DNA of 64,000 nucleotides, taken from Lachnospiraceae bacterium MA2020 (GTDB taxonomy: Bacteria; Bacillota; Clostridia; Lachnospirales; Lachnospiraceae). The stretch is from positions 1 through 64,000 of the forward strand of contig JQKK01000010.1 of assembly GCA_000746015.1 (NCBI GenBank). The letters run 5' to 3'. Below the pieces are notes generated by a model. The model saw only the letters and a program-made list of their open reading frames with translations. It had not been told where the DNA came from and did no database searches. A program made the translations under genes and the position numbers. This document shows positions 1 to 63,954 of the stretch, piece by piece. Each line of letters begins with the position of its first letter. Position 1 is the stretch's first letter.

Positions 1-2631
<2,631 letters not shown>

Positions 2632-5525: not shown

Positions 5526-6704
5526 ATGAACGAATTATCACTTAAGTATGGATGCAACCCAAATCAGAAGCCAGCAAGAGTATTTATGGAAAACGGAAGT
5601 GATCTTCCGCTTACAGTACTCAACGGCAAGCCAGGATACATCAACCTTCTTGATGCATTTAATGGCTGGCAGCTTGTAAAGGAGCTCAAGGAGGCTACAG
5701 GTCTTCCGGCAGCAACATCCTTTAAGCATGTTTCACCTGCAGGTGCGGCTGTGGGACTTCCACTGTCACCAGTTGAAGCAAAGATTTACTGGGTAGATGA
5801 TCTTGGTGAGCTCAGCCCACTCGCATGTGCATATGCAAGAGCCCGCGGCGCTGACAGAATGTCTTCATACGGAGATTTCATTTCTCTTTCAGATACATGT
5901 GATGTGGATACTGCTAATCTTGTAAAGAGAGAGGTATCTGACGGAATCATCGCTCCCGGCTACACACCGGAGGCTCTTGAGATACTTAAGAGCAAGAAGA
6001 ATGGTAATTACTGCATCCTTCAGATTGATGAGAACTATGTGCCGGAAGCTATCGAGAGAAAGCAGGTATTTGGTGTAACATTCGAGCAGGGAAGAAATAA
6101 CTTTGTTATCAATAAAGAGCTCCTTGAAAATATTGTTACAAAGAATCATGACCTTCCTGAGTCGGCAAAAGTGGACCTTATGCTTTCACTTATAGTTTTG
6201 AAGTATACTCAGTCAAACTCTGTAGCATACGCAAAGGGTGGACAGGCAATCGGTATCGGAGCAGGACAGCAGTCAAGAATCCACTGCACTCGTCTTGCAG
6301 GCTCAAAGGCTGACAACTGGTTCCTCCGTCAGTCTCCACAGGTACTTGAGCTTCCATTCCTTGATGATATCAGACGTGCTGACAGAGATAATGCTATCGA
6401 CATCTACATCGGACACGACTATATGGATGTACTTGCCGATGGCGCATGGCAGAAGGTATTTAAGACAAAGCCGGAGGTATTTACAGAAGAGGACAAGCGC
6501 GCATGGCTTGACAAGAATACAGGAGTTTCTCTTGGTTCTGATGCATTCTTCCCATTTGGCGATAATATTGAGAGAGCTGCAAAGAGTGGCGTTTCTTATA
6601 TCGCTGAGCCGGGTGGATCAATCAGAGATGATAATGTAATCGAGACTTGTGATAAGTACAACATGACAATGTGCTTTACCGGAATGAGACTTTTCCATCA
6701 TTAA
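5526..6704 (+). CDS. AICAR formyltransferase (stand-alone, PurH C-terminal type)
   Basis: The 392-residue protein corresponds to the formyltransferase half of PurH. It transfers a formyl group from 10-formyl-THF to AICAR. Visible signatures are [12 protein letters not shown] near the N-terminus, [14 protein letters not shown] around residue 65 (catalytic Lys-His region), and [20 protein letters not shown] around residue 230. It lacks the N-terminal MGS-like cyclohydrolase domain; the preceding gene supplies that activity. SD GAGGAG precedes the ATG. A 12-bp hairpin terminator follows. Confidence 0.9.
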
Positions 6705-17483: not shown

Positions 17484-18251
17484 TTGAGTAGCGTAGAATT
17501 ACTGGATAAAACAAGAAAAATTAACAGACTTTTGCACAACAATAAGACTACAAAGGTAGTTTTTAACGACATCTGCAGCTGTGTAGCTGAGCTTATCGGT
17601 TCTTGCACATTTGTCCTCAGTAAGAAGGGCAAGGTTTTGGGATGCAGCGATGGATCAGAGCAGCACGCAAAGCCTTTTGGAGATGATGTTGGAGATTTCA
17701 TCACAAAGGAAGTTAATGCGAGACTTCTTGAGATCCTTTCAACACAGGAAAACGTAAATACTGAGACACTTGGTATTGAGATGCCAGCCGGAAATCAGTG
17801 GTTTACAATGATCGCTCCTATCTATATCGCAGGTGAGAGACTTGGTACACTTTTTGTATGCCGTACAGAGCGTGGATACTCTATCGATGATATCATCCTT
17901 TGCGAGTATGCAACAACTGTAGTAGGACTTGAGATCATGCGCTCACTCAGCGAGGAGATCGCTGAAGAGAGAAACAGAGAGCAGATCGTGCGTTCAGCAG
18001 CAGGCTCACTTTCTCTTTCAGAGGCAAAGGCTATGAAGCAGATCCTTATGGAGATCAATGGTACAGAAGGTACTATCGTAGCTTCAAGAGTAGCTGACAG
18101 AGTTGGTATCACAAGATCAGTTATCGTTAATGGTCTTCGTAAGCTTGAGAGTGCCGGCGTTATCGAGTGTAAGTCATCAGGTATGAAGGGCACATTCATC
18201 AAGGTCATCAACAGCGAGATCTACGATGAGATTGCGGACGATTTAAAGTAA
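17484..18251 (+). CDS. codY: Global transcriptional regulator CodY
   Basis: CodY senses GTP and branched-chain amino acids and represses stationary-phase genes in Firmicutes. Start is TTG 17484, with GGAAGAGAAGG upstream. The 255-residue protein has the N-terminal GAF-like ligand domain (LLDKTRKINRLL, SSV) and a C-terminal winged helix with recognition part VADRVGITRSVIVNGLRKLE. Length is normal. It is the last gene of the comM operon and is followed by a strong terminator. Confidence 0.97.
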   Translation: MSSVELLDKTRKINRLLHNNKTTKVVFNDICSCVAELIGSCTFVLSKKGKVLGCSDGSEQHAKPFGDDVGDFITKEVNARLLEILSTQENVNTETLGIEMPAGNQWFTMIAPIYIAGERLGTLFVCRTERGYSIDDIILCEYATTVVGLEIMRSLSEEIAEERNREQIVRSAAGSLSLSEAKAMKQILMEINGTEGTIVASRVADRVGITRSVIVNGLRKLESAGVIECKSSGMKGTFIKVINSEIYDEIADDLK

Positions 18252-18423: not shown

Positions 18424-18451
18424 TTGACTTTTTAATTCAAATCTTTATAAT
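18424..18451 (+). promoter_or_regulatory. Promoter of the ATP synthase operon
   Basis: TTGACT (18424-18429) and TATAAT (18446-18451) are 16 bases apart. The sequence around it (CACATTGACTTTT and CTTTATAAT) is nearly the same as at the flagellar operon promoter 26005-26032. About 200 bases of leader follow and contain the four-hairpin element. Confidence 0.75.
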
Positions 18452-18496
18452 TAATTGTAGGTGTTTGTGCTTAATGAATATACAAATTTGTATGAC

Positions 18497-18613
18497 TTTT
18501 CGCGGACAATTTAGGAAAACATCCGCGAAAATCCGCCTTTGGCGGATACGCAACTCTAATACAGAGTTGCTAGTCCAATACGAATATTGATTTTTTGATA
18601 AAAATCAATATTC
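18497..18613 (+). repeat. Four-hairpin element, copy 1
   Basis: Four successive hairpins: TTTTCGCGGA 18497-18506 with 18522-18531; ATCCGCC 18531-18537 with 18541-18547; GCAACTCT 18550-18557 with 18563-18570; and a 14-bp stem 18582-18595 with 18600-18613. The linker TAGTCCAATAC separates hairpins 3 and 4. A second copy lies in reverse orientation at 36841-36955. Stem differences between the copies are compensatory. It lies in the untranslated leader of the ATP synthase operon. Confidence 0.85.
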
Positions 18614-18653
18614 TATATGATTTTGTACATAAATTTCAAGGGGGAGCTTGATC

Positions 18654-18932
18654 TTGGGTATGCAGATAAAGGATTTTAGCAGGATATCAACACAGCTAGC
18701 AATGATAGGCCAGCTTGGTCTGTCTCTTATCATGCCTTTACTTATCTGCATTTTTTTCTGCTATTATCTCACAGCAAAATTTTCTGTCGGAGTATGGGTC
18801 TATATTCCGGGTTTCTTCTTTGGCTTAGGTGGCTCGATAACGACGGCATATAAGGTCTATCTTGATATAGACAGAAAGATAGAGAAGCCAAAACGCGATA
18901 AGGATGAAGTTTCATTTAACAGGCATATATAA
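18654..18932 (+). CDS. AtpZ/AtpI-family small membrane protein
   Basis: The protein of about 92 residues has two membrane helices: one in QLGLSLIMPLLICIFF and one in VGVWVYIPGFFFGLGG. This is the layout of the AtpZ/ATP synthase I family, which helps c-ring assembly or Mg/Ca transport. TTG 18654 is chosen because AAGGGGGAG ends 8 bases upstream; TTG 18648 is too close and ATG 18660 is also possible. First gene of the ATP synthase operon. Confidence 0.75.
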   Translation: MGMQIKDFSRISTQLAMIGQLGLSLIMPLLICIFFCYYLTAKFSVGVWVYIPGFFFGLGGSITTAYKVYLDIDRKIEKPKRDKDEVSFNRHI

Positions 18933-19395: not shown

Positions 19396-20157
19396 ATGAA
19401 CTTTGAAATAGCCGGCAGCAAGATCTATTACAGTATCCATACGGGTGTGCCGGTACTTGGTGATTTTAACATCACTGAGACACTGGTAGTCAGCTGGATA
19501 GTAATGGCTATCATAACCTTGCTGTGTATCTTCTTGACGAGAAACATGTCGGTGGAGAATATTTCAAAGCGTCAGGCAGTTGCAGAAATGATAGTGGAGG
19601 CAGCCAACAATCTGGTGCGGAGTAATACCGGGTCAAATCGTTTTGATTGGCTTATACCGCTGGTAGCAGCGATATTTTCAACGAGTATTATTTCAAACCT
19701 CATCTGTCTGGTGGGACTTAGAAGTCCGACAGCCGATCTGTCAACTGAAGCAGCATGGGCGGTAGTGGTTTTCATCATCATTACCGGTTGTAAGATCAAG
19801 GCAGGAGGTATAGGAGGATACCTTAAAGGATTTACTACTCCTATAGCGGTAATGACACCGTTTAATATCCTCTCAGAGCTTGCAACTCCAGTAAGTATGG
19901 CTTGCCGTCATTTCGGTAATATCCTTTCCGGAATAGTTATCGACGGACTTATTTATGCTGCACTTGCTATAGCTTCATCTGCAATCTTTGGAGCAATCCC
20001 GGGAGCAGTGGGAGATTTTCTTTCACAGATTCCAATCCTCAGCGTAGGTATACCGGCTGTGCTCGGTTTTTACTTCGACTGGTTCACAGGATGCATGCAG
20101 GCGTTTATCTTCTCTATGTTGACGATAATGTATATCGCCAATGCAGCAGAAGGTTGA
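19396..20157 (+). CDS. atpB: ATP synthase F0 subunit a
   Basis: Subunit a forms the ion half-channels beside the c ring. The 253-residue protein has five to six membrane helices. Conserved parts are NRFDWLIPLVAAIFS, FITP-like GFTTPIAVMTPFNILSE and SMACRHFGNILSG, which holds the essential Arg. The C-terminal helix contains GCMQAFIFSMLTIMYI, with the Gln expected there. SD GGAAGG lies upstream. An intercistronic hairpin follows before atpE. Confidence 0.95.
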   Translation: MNFEIAGSKIYYSIHTGVPVLGDFNITETLVVSWIVMAIITLLCIFLTRNMSVENISKRQAVAEMIVEAANNLVRSNTGSNRFDWLIPLVAAIFSTSIISNLICLVGLRSPTADLSTEAAWAVVVFIIITGCKIKAGGIGGYLKGFTTPIAVMTPFNILSELATPVSMACRHFGNILSGIVIDGLIYAALAIASSAIFGAIPGAVGDFLSQIPILSVGIPAVLGFYFDWFTGCMQAFIFSMLTIMYIANAAEG

Positions 20158-36436: not shown

Positions 36437-36841
36437 ATGAATATCGCAAAAGGAAACTACCTTTCCATAAATCAAATAGCCGACCAATATGGGCTCGGGC
36501 AAAAAAATGGAGCGGCAGCGTCTGTCAGGGAAGACAGGACCTTTGCAGAGATCCTTGCTGAGAAACGGGACAACCTGAAAGAAGCTTCGGGATTGAATTT
36601 CTCAAAACATGCAGCACAGAGGCTGTCGGAGAGAAATATCGAGATGAGCTCAGAGCAGCTCGGGAGACTCGCAAGCGGAGTAGACAGGGCAGGCAAGAAA
36701 GGCATCAATGATTCGCTTGTAATGGTTGATGATCTGGCATTTATCGTAAATACCAAGAGCCAGACAGTAGTCACAGCAATGGATGCTAAAGATACAAAGG
36801 ACAGCGTCTTTTCAAATATTGACGGCGCGGTTATAGCATAG
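36437..36841 (+). CDS. Flagellar operon protein, TIGR02530 type
   Basis: The 134-residue protein has the conserved part of the TIGR02530 family: LNFSKHAAQRLSERNIEMSS, then VDDLAFIVNTKSQTVVTAMD near the end. The family always lies between flgD and flgE in Firmicutes; its role is unknown. SD GGAGG. Its stop codon touches the four-hairpin element copy 2. Confidence 0.9.
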   Translation: MNIAKGNYLSINQIADQYGLGQKNGAAASVREDRTFAEILAEKRDNLKEASGLNFSKHAAQRLSERNIEMSSEQLGRLASGVDRAGKKGINDSLVMVDDLAFIVNTKSQTVVTAMDAKDTKDSVFSNIDGAVIA

Positions 36842-36955
36842 AACATTGATTTTTATCGAAAAATCAATGTTCGTATTGGACTAGCAACTCTTAATAAGAG
36901 TTGCGTATCCGCCAAAGGCGGATTTTTGCGGACGTTTCCTTGGTTGTCCGCAAAA
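36841..36955 (-). repeat. Four-hairpin element, copy 2 (reverse orientation)
   Basis: Reverse complement of copy 1 at 18497-18613. Stems: 36841-36854 with 36859-36872; GCAACTCT 36884-36891 with 36897-36904; 36907-36913 with 36917-36923; and 36924-36933 with 36946-36955. Relative to copy 1, one outer pair changes C-G to T-A in the first stem and one changes T-A to C-G in the fourth. It fills most of the 143-base gap before flgE and shares one base with the preceding stop codon. Confidence 0.85.
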
Positions 36956-36984
36956 AGTTATTAAAATTCGGAGGTAAATGACTT

Positions 36985-38370
36985 ATGATGAAATCACTTT
37001 TTGCCGGTGTAACTGGTCTTAAGACACACCAGAGCAGGATGGATGTTATTGGTAATAATATATCTAACGTTAATACAGTAGGTTATAAGGGAAGCTCAAT
37101 GAGATTCCAGGATCTCCTTTATCAGACAACTCAGGCAGCAACCGGTCCTAGCAGCACAGGACGTGCCGGAACAAACGCGCGTCAGATAGGTCTTGGTGCA
37201 CAGACTGCATCTATCGTAACCAATATCGCACAGGCAGGTTCACCTGAGACGACAGGTATGGCGCTTGATATGTATCTTGATGGAGACAGCTTCTTTATGG
37301 TATCTCCTGACGGAAGCCAGAATCTTTACTATACAAGAGCAGGCGCATTTACCGTTGATGCAGAGGGTACACTCTGTATGGCATCAAATGGTTATCCTGT
37401 AATGGGCTATGGCACGACTCAGGTTGATGACGGCAGTGGTACAGGAACTATGATCACGGCAGTTGATAGCAGCAAGCTTCAGACACTGCCTATACAGAAT
37501 GTATCTAATTCTACATGTGAGCCTTCGGCAACAACTAAGGCATACATGACAGGAATAGTAGATCAGGATGATACTGATTTTGATGTTAATGGTAAGGCTG
37601 TATCATTTTCTTTCTACGATAATGTAGGATATATGTACACGGCAAATTACTATTTAACCAGAGATGCATCAAAGTCTCCTGTTGAATATACATTGACTTT
37701 GAATAATATTAAAGACGCTAAGGATAATGTTGTGACAAGTGCTACTGGAGGAAGCGAAACAAGTGTTACTGTAACATTTAATACAAAAGGAACCTTGTAT
37801 GAGGAATCTACTACGGCTACTGCAGCAGAAGCAAAAGAGGCATTGCTTTCAACCAAGCCATTGACGTTTACATTTACAAGTCCAGTTTCGGGCGGTACAA
37901 ATACGATAACGGTTGACTATGCAGAGCTTACAAACTATGCAAATAATAAGAGATGTTCGATAACAGCAAATCCTGGTGCTTCATCAGCTGACTCTACTGG
38001 TAGTGGTTGGGCAACCGGTACCCTTAGAGGCTTCAACATCGGTACTGACGGTACTATCTACGGCACTTACACAAATGGCCAGACAAAGCTCCTTGGACAG
38101 ATTCCTGTAGCTACATTCTCAAATGCGGCAGGTCTTTCTAAAGAGGGTGATAACCTTTATGCATCAACACTTAACTCAGGTACACGTACTATCAGTGATC
38201 CTACAGCGGGTGGTGGAAAGCTTGTCACAGGACAGCTTGAAATGTCAAACGTAGATCTTGCACAGGAATTTACAACAATGATCACAACACAGAGAGGTTT
38301 CCAGGCAAACAGCCGTATCATAACAGTTTCAGATACAATGCTTGAGGAACTTACAAATCTGAAGAGATAA
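36985..38370 (+). CDS. flgE: Flagellar hook protein FlgE
   Basis: Major subunit of the hook. The 461-residue protein has the N-terminal SLFAGVTGLKTHQSRMDVIG with NNISNVNTVGYKGSS, and the C-terminal helix NVDLAQEFTTMITTQRGFQA. The central D2/D3 part (about residues 180-330) is Thr/Asn/Ala-rich and variable. ATG 36985 follows SD GGAGG; ATG 36988 is also possible. A long perfect hairpin follows the stop. Confidence 0.97.
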   Translation: MMKSLFAGVTGLKTHQSRMDVIGNNISNVNTVGYKGSSMRFQDLLYQTTQAATGPSSTGRAGTNARQIGLGAQTASIVTNIAQAGSPETTGMALDMYLDGDSFFMVSPDGSQNLYYTRAGAFTVDAEGTLCMASNGYPVMGYGTTQVDDGSGTGTMITAVDSSKLQTLPIQNVSNSTCEPSATTKAYMTGIVDQDDTDFDVNGKAVSFSFYDNVGYMYTANYYLTRDASKSPVEYTLTLNNIKDAKDNVVTSATGGSETSVTVTFNTKGTLYEESTTATAAEAKEALLSTKPLTFTFTSPVSGGTNTITVDYAELTNYANNKRCSITANPGASSADSTGSGWATGTLRGFNIGTDGTIYGTYTNGQTKLLGQIPVATFSNAAGLSKEGDNLYASTLNSGTRTISDPTAGGGKLVTGQLEMSNVDLAQEFTTMITTQRGFQANSRIITVSDTMLEELTNLKR

Positions 38371-63094: not shown

Positions 63095-63130
63095 AGTCAA
63101 GTATGTGGCTTATCATGCCCGTACTTGACT
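63095..63130 (+). promoter_or_regulatory. Hairpin at the start of the rpsB leader
   Basis: AGTCAAGTA (63095-63103) pairs perfectly with TACTTGACT (63122-63130), followed by ATTTTATT. It could end the flagellar transcript or act in the rpsB leader. Confidence 0.5.
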
Positions 63131-63234
63131 ATTTTATTAATCAGATATACTGATCTGTGGTCGGTGCCTTATGATAATGAGGTCTTCTGCAGAGCTGACG
63201 TATATCGACGCTACAAACCGTAGGAGGTAAGAAA

Positions 63235-63954
63235 ATGAGCGTTATTTCAATGAAGCAGTTACTCGAGGCAGGTGTACACTTTGGACACCAGACAAGAAGA
63301 TGGAACCCTAAGATGGCTCCTTACATCTACACAGAGAGAAATGGTATCTATATCATCGATCTTCAGAAGTCTGTAGGTAAGGTTGACGAGGCTTACAACG
63401 CAATCGGTGACATCGCAGCTAACGGCGGCACAATCCTTTTCGTTGGTACAAAGAAGCAGGCTCAGGACGCTATCAAGTCTGAGGCAGAGCGTTGCGGAAT
63501 GTACTATGTAAACGAGAGATGGCTCGGTGGTATGCTCACAAACTTCAAGACAATCCAGTCAAGAATCAAGAGACTTAAGGAAATCGAGACAATGTCTCAG
63601 GACGGTACATTCGATGTTCTTCCTAAGAAGGAAGTTGCACTTCTTCAGAAGGAGTGGGATAAGCTTGAGAAGAACCTTGGCGGTATCAAGAACATGAAGC
63701 AGATCCCAGACGCTATCTTCGTTGTAGATCCTAAGAAGGAGAAGATCTGCGTACAGGAAGCTCACAAGCTTGGTATCACTCTTGTTGGTATCGCTGATAC
63801 AAACTGCGATCCTGAGGAGCTTGATTATGTAATTCCTGGTAACGATGATGCTATCCGTGCAGTTAAGCTTATCGTTTCTAAGATGGCTGACGCTGTTATC
63901 GAGGCTAACCAGGGTGTAACTGAGGCTGATGCAGCTGAGGAAGCAGCAGAATAA
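63235..63954 (+). CDS. rpsB: 30S ribosomal protein S2
   Basis: Essential 30S protein. The 239-residue product starts with [19 protein letters not shown] and has the S2 motifs [38 protein letters not shown] and [16 protein letters not shown]. Strong SD GTAGGAGG. Codon use is that of a highly expressed gene. The downstream gene is expected to be tsf. Confidence 0.98.

Follow-up and report, generated by a model that had tools for sequence, protein, structure and literature searches.

A repeated, AT-bordered element with a covarying five-stem fold in Lachnospiraceae, very probably a mobile DNA

Why should one hairpin-rich sequence stand both ahead of the atp operon and, in the opposite orientation, beside flgE in the window, by which we mean the whole stretch of 64,000 nucleotides from Lachnospiraceae bacterium MA2020 that was analysed? 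The original prediction described two inverted copies with four stems each, an unchanged linker and two stem differences that preserve pairing, and hesitated between a mobile MITE/REP-like element and a structured RNA family. Its description held: the copies lie where it had put them, the full units being slightly longer (Table 1), the linker TAGTCCAATAC is identical in both, and the two compensatory changes are real, with one pair in hairpin 1 and one in hairpin 4. What lay beyond its view was an outer GACT/AGTC stem, seven further full-length copies in this genome along with several fragments, and an AT at either border. As for its two readings, the evidence set out below favours a MITE/REP-like element (dispersed and identical copies, empty sites, a defined target motif) and speaks against an RNA family (no orientation bias, no G.T excess in the hairpins, no Rfam match), so that we regard the element as, very probably, a non-autonomous MITE-like mobile DNA.

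Table 1. Coordinates of the element, its parts and its surroundings in the window, and of related repeats on plasmid pNP243
Feature	Position	Strand	Remarks
Copy 1, AT to AT	18492..18616	+	leader between codY and atp operon; model match and Pfam context
Left AT of copy 1	18492..18493		2-bp direct repeat or crossover dinucleotide
P1, 5' strand GACT	18494..18497	+	pairs with AGTC 18572-18575; RNAalifold, DNA fold
P2 (hairpin 1), ten pairs	18498..18530	+	both-side changes in 9 of 10 pairs
P3 (hairpin 2), seven pairs, three-base loop	18531..18547	+	
P4 (hairpin 3), about eight pairs	18550..18570	+	
P1, 3' strand AGTC	18572..18575	+	RNAalifold, covariation
Linker CAATAC	18576..18581	+	
P5 (hairpin 4), fourteen pairs	18582..18613	+	right-end half-site on its 3' arm
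Right AT of copy 1	18615..18616		
Promoter-like TTGACT-16-TATAAT, 11 of 12 consensus	18424..18451	+	upstream of copy 1; consensus match alone
CodY domain	17484-18251		Pfam, around copy 1
ATPase_gene1 domain	18648-18932		Pfam, around copy 1
ATP-synt_A domain	19396-20157		Pfam, around copy 1
Copy 2, AT to AT	36838..36961	-	between small flagellar gene and flgE; model match and Pfam context
Flagellar_put domain	36437-36841		Pfam, around copy 2
Flg_bbr_C/Flg_bb_rod domains	36985-38370		Pfam, around copy 2
pNP243 repeat family one	127448-127599, 5839-5989		left end AT-GACTTYTTG
pNP243 repeat family two	237931-238109, 146629-146776, 1464-1641		left end AT-GACTTYTTG
pNP243 further dispersed repeats, ~190 to 350 bp	63112-63304, 132011-132204, 169721-169913		palindrome-rich by eye
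pNP243 further dispersed repeats, ~190 to 350 bp	90244-90543, 101553-101791, 137880-138123, 151021-151369		palindrome-rich by eye

The folded body and its covariation

The element is about 122-125 bp long; between the two window copies identity is 89% (E 2.5e-39 in a search of the own genome). Judged from the promoter-like site 5' of it, copy 1 may lie within the atp leader transcript; three such sites were found in all against a shuffle mean of 2.3 (sd 1.5), i.e. no excess. At copy 2 the flagellar frame 36437-36841 takes its TAG stop codon from the end of the element (window 36839-36841), and in the aligned empty sequence of two relatives a stop codon is seen by eye at the same point (TGA in L279, TAA in L280).

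We name the outer stem P1, hairpins 1-3 P2-P4 and hairpin 4 P5. The original prediction of four stems per copy is borne out by the folding of both window copies, each with a z of about -10 against dinucleotide shuffles under RNA parameters, and under DNA parameters copy 1 again gave the four hairpins plus the outer stem (z -9). RNAalifold, run on the nine full-length copies of the own genome (3.72 Mb in 49 contigs, with fragments besides), returned 43 pairs, 12 of them with changes on both sides, and had P1 close hairpins 1-3 into a cloverleaf. The covariance model built from these nine copies was then used for a larger set of 74 aligned matches, 69 of them distinct, drawn from 72 chosen loci; in this set 94.1% of cells are paired and 39 of the 43 pairs have both-side changes. 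The covariation score of this set is 0.588 compared to 0.180 after shuffling, with none of 500 shuffles reaching the observed score, and the signal vanishes when the partners are slid by 1-3 columns. The 74-match alignment was fitted to the model and so leans to structure; the changes are visible too in an unfitted alignment of 42 diverse copies. In the latter, the linker TAC together with the first G of P5 (18579-18582) is invariant, as is one loop A of P5. In P1, both-side changes occur in two of the four pairs, and the pairing differs by lineage, GACT being matched with AGTC or GGTC, AGGT with GCC and TGGT with GCCA. We do not claim a P2-P5 loop-loop pairing, for which the signal was weak (reached by 5 of 300 shuffles with Watson-Crick pairs and by 88 of 300 when G.U was allowed).

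Distribution of the family

Model matches, which are not strictly equal to copies, were found at E <= 0.1 in 26 of the 48 genomes of the genus, the own genome included, with up to 27 per genome; 14 genomes had at least five and 22 had none. Thus neither a lack of further copies in the genus nor a loss of pairing in them, the two outcomes that the original prediction had named against itself, was what the search returned. For the comparisons below, 80 stretches were fetched and 95 copies analysed, 9 from the own genome and 86 from others; these 86 come from 94 listed matches, of which the 8 weakest, mostly opposite-strand or overlapping, were dropped. Since the copies were taken from the better-scoring matches, degenerate ones are under-represented, and because overlapping matches were left out of the search results, the set of 95 lacks the second member of some tandem pairs. 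At the level of the bacterial family, at least 4 of 397 genomes match, in four genera including the own genus, a lower bound as just 8 candidates per genome were scored. Among public genome contigs sharing a 15-mer with the element, 2 of 42 stretches hold it (one Butyrivibrio, one Lachnospiraceae) and 40 have no model match.

Phages and plasmids gave zero matches to window copy 1, and plasmids zero to the version of genome G023; the version of G046 had two partial matches to plasmids of Sphingobium and Xanthobacter (E 0.03 and 0.09, coverage 31% and 29%), which we take as chance. Of 25 viral-contig stretches that contain one or other of two short words, none had a model match. In G188, a genome of another genus, six of eight copies (L255, L259, L262, L265, L270, L273) sit in a mosaic, partly inverted repeated array and have the left flank AGTGGGTGTT in common.

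Borders, targets and empty sites

The borders were studied in 88 copies that passed a border filter, reduced to 87 by deduplication and to 77 by a pattern filter against neighbouring copies, which let through at least one tandem copy (L189). In the 87 copies the left border has A in 97% and T in 93%, and the right border the same, so that the border repeat which the original prediction had proposed to look for as a target-site duplication is present as a 2-bp AT. The target logo from the 77 sites, C A A W A A W B Y [AT] R V W W T W T T G, is a palindrome; its central AT was written in by the script, and the AT frequency is to be taken from the 87-copy count. Outside the AT the target holds 5.57 bits of information, compared to a maximum of 0.98 among 500 samples of random flank ATs. 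The palindromic match between the two halves of individual targets is 0.384 against a mean of 0.364 with the halves shuffled; the halves therefore vary independently, as expected for symmetric contact by a protein and not for a folded target.

The commonest left end is AT-GACTTCTTG, and the commonest right end, read inwards, AT-AGATTATTG. Both resemble the target half-site: against random AT half-sites, the median left end ranks in the top 2.0% and the median for the right end in the top 0.1%. Relative to each other the ends are weak inverted repeats at most. Neighbouring copies overlap by exactly the AT. The tandem neighbours in G046 and G010 are different variants (94% and about 80% alike, respectively) and are therefore insertions; the nearly identical tandem pair in G032 could be a duplication.

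When the joined flanks of the nine own-genome sites were searched in the 48 genomes, matches spanning the joint appeared at three of them. For L002 the G023 sequence runs TTCTATAAATTT and has one AT, which makes this the one site where the single AT is clear; a further two loci compared with L002 did not span the joint. At the L006 site, one locus was aligned and it spans the joint. The site of copy 2 is uninterrupted in 18 of 25 loci of relatives, the other seven having a spacer longer than the joined sequence, and a model search found the element in none of the 25; the few bases where the flanks meet differ among the spanning loci, and some only have an AT exactly there. The other six sites, window copy 1 included, gave no joint-spanning match among the matches listed.

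Movement has been recent in some lineages and looks older in the window's host. Identical copies make up 6 of the 14 fetched from G023 and 5 of the 12 from G046, with differing flanks in both genomes, and further ones were seen as groups of three and two among 11 copies in G010 and as pairs in G012, G041 and G044, while there were none among the 9 own-genome, 6 G037 and 11 G032 copies fetched. One right flank is common to a copy of G010 (L183) and one of G046 (L167), so that some insertions predate species splits and vertical descent accounts for part of the pattern. The own genome also has two 30-bp derivatives (L012 and L015, ~1498-1530) with the left end joined directly to the right half of P5; they could be mobile mini-elements or else the result of parallel deletions between TTTTCG repeats. 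In G023 a solo P5 hairpin stands between ATs (L143, ~386-422), just after a phosphoribosyltransferase-like frame (upp by eye).

How the element might move

Two alternatives dispense with mobility or with a selected fold. A family of structured RNAs (cis-leaders or sRNAs), present in many copies incidentally, would also account for the strong covariation and for the promoter-like site ahead of copy 1. A fold kept as RNA should prefer G.U to A.C on its own strand, and P1 does so, with 49 G.T cells against 8 A.C on the plus strand. P1 is, however, the exception: in P2-P5, once three pairs with poor alignment are excluded, Watson-Crick cells make up 96.6%, G.T 0.77%, A.C 1.18% and other combinations 1.46%, and with no excess of G.T over A.C the hairpins do not follow the RNA expectation. 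Nor are the 95 copies biased in their orientation to genes, as judged on long-ORF proxies and not on annotation: both neighbours run the same way in 23, both the opposite way in 27 and they are mixed in 28, with 14 copies at a contig edge and 3 inside a long frame. Rfam had no match in the whole window at gathering scores and none over the element in six element loci at E up to 1. Together with the empty sites in relatives, this makes an RNA family highly improbable. The other alternative is that the compensatory changes are mutational, template switching having corrected the hairpin arms to perfect palindromes in the absence of selection on the fold. This would suit stems that are nearly pure Watson-Crick and devoid of wobble intermediates, and template switching could explain part of the covariation pattern. 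As the whole explanation it seems unlikely, given that the unpaired linker TAC and the P5 loop A are invariant in the 42 aligned copies and that the outer P1 covaries though it is not a local palindrome.

If the element is mobile DNA, as we think, the question turns to its mover, and the hairpins in body and ends bring to mind REP/PATE-type elements moved by an HUH Y1 transposase, of the RAYT or IS200/IS605 kind, that works on folded single strands. Y1 genes are indeed present in 24 of the 48 genomes of the genus, but in co-occurrence tests, which here and below involve small numbers and many incomplete MAGs, they do not track the element, being found in 6 of the 14 genomes with at least five matches and in 14 of the 22 element-free ones, and the lack of association was the same in 9 and then in 48 genomes. 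No element sequence (R1 match at E <= 1) lies within ~1.5 kb on each side of 30 Y1 loci, so no Y1 gene was seen flanked by the repeat. The orientation of copies relative to local GC skew is random (47 of 95, p = 1.0), and the target is palindromic with AT on both sides. A Y1 mover is thus very doubtful. A serine recombinase, integrating the element by a 2-bp AT crossover between dyad sites, would suit the borders, as a palindromic target with a central dinucleotide and ends that act as half-sites fit the chemistry of these enzymes. Resolvase-domain genes were found in 14 of 15 genomes searched, in 7 of 8 carriers but also in all 7 element-free genomes, and the one carrier without a match at E <= 0.001, G041, is 98% complete and has 18 element matches, some of them identical copies. 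We consider this route improbable, if less so than a Y1 mover.

Our best reading is a MITE-like family under structural constraint that a putative dimeric transposase moves in trans. Many short, dispersed copies lacking a transposase gene, a target duplication and empty alleles are all found, as expected of a MITE. Terminal inverted repeats shared with an autonomous element are not, the ends having a weak half-site likeness only and the searched stretches holding no parent, and we therefore speak of 'MITE-like' and give no family name. Against a mobile reading it can also be said that a standard DDE-moved MITE needs no conserved internal hairpins. By analogy, an IS30-like enzyme is a tentative candidate for the mover. 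According to PMC9333248, IS30 of E. coli makes a 2-bp target duplication, prefers nearly palindromic hot spots and inserts beside its own ends with 2-bp spacing, and the element is alike in its 2-bp duplication, its palindromic target and its insertion beside its own ends. It is unlike IS30 in lacking a transposase, in having short half-sites where IS30 has long inverted repeats, and in its five covarying stems. In such a pathway, a dimeric transposase supplied in trans would bind the half-sites and join the element ends 2 bp apart, followed by the copy-out, paste-in steps and the 2-bp duplication of IS30, and insertion would go to palindromic hot spots or to the element's own ends. The five stems could then have been kept since the element passes through, or is recognised in, folded DNA such as hairpins or cruciforms.

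The original prediction had suggested looking for a linked transposase, and none was found in the stretches searched. IS30 itself failed as an identified partner: the transposase matched in 3 of 10 carrier genomes, twice over the cut-off, and in none of the other seven, including G023 with its 15 element matches; half-sites were absent from three IS30-type loci in three genomes, where the ends did not match the element, and two such loci, inspected for inverted ends, had no convincing pair. DDE_Tnp_1 has no link to the element either (present in 8 of the 14 genomes rich in the element and in 12 of the 22 that lack it). The stretches fetched contain no longer element or gene whose ends match. 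Partial matches in four genomes (G000, G023, G046 and, apart from C149 and C91, G010), considered as traces of an autonomous parent, were rejected as such, some reading as truncated, internally deleted or solo-hairpin copies and one, L328, as a divergent full copy. Retrotransposition was considered as 5'-truncated copies seemed common at first, yet 3'-truncated and internally deleted ones occur as well. Among representatives of the 25 largest clusters of neighbouring ORFs, some apparently joined by translations of the element itself, no transposase was recognised by eye as a recurrent neighbour.

Conserved palindromic hairpins in many copies are found in REP/RAYT and PATE elements, and the present element is like them in this, but differs in its palindromic target and in having neither a Y1 association nor a strand bias. 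Integron attC sites are likewise folded DNAs kept by structure more than by sequence; here, in contrast, there is no cassette, and the units are AT-bordered, single and dispersed. According to PMC2229807, CIR of Caulobacter and RUP of pneumococcus are ~110 bp, repeated, intergenic and non-autonomous, as our element is, and CIR also forms hairpin arms. Whereas CIR consists of two arms and a linker, the element has five stems, and whereas RUP has TA and ends shared with IS630-Spn1, the element has AT and no parent was found. Small hairpin-rich bacterial MITEs have been described (PMC2229807), so the kind is known; what is new, as far as checked, is the combination of a covarying body of five stems with a palindromic target centred on AT, and among the matches listed in the open-access literature none describes such elements from Butyrivibrio or Lachnospiraceae. 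A mobile DNA whose whole body, and not just its ends, is held to a five-stem fold, and which has a sharply defined symmetrical target, makes it testable why a transposon would need folded DNA and offers a handle for finding the mobilising enzyme. It is also a warning that, in these genomes, intergenic clusters of hairpins with strong covariation are not necessarily regulatory RNAs.

A possible wider setting is offered by plasmid pNP243 of B. fibrisolvens D1 (NZ_CP146964.1; L389-L393), which has no convincing copy of the family (one match, E 0.31) and holds at least two other repeats with a left end of the same type (Table 1). Copies of both these pNP243 families adjoin near 127598 with the AT in common; family one folds strongly (z -10) and family two, over the stretch chosen, modestly (z -2.5). 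This suggests a possible common mobiliser for the pNP243 repeats and the window element. One may go further, on a speculative footing, and envision in Butyrivibrio and its kin a class of multi-stem mobile DNAs with varied folded bodies and the same AT-centred half-site ends, moved by one putative recombinase that needs folded DNA, of which the window family would be one member.

A second, smaller hairpin element, AAGGAATCC...ACCCCTT of ~46 bp, lies within the present element, at its P3, in both L151 and L152 (~2050-2110), and also occurs outside it in L200 (near the start, minus strand).
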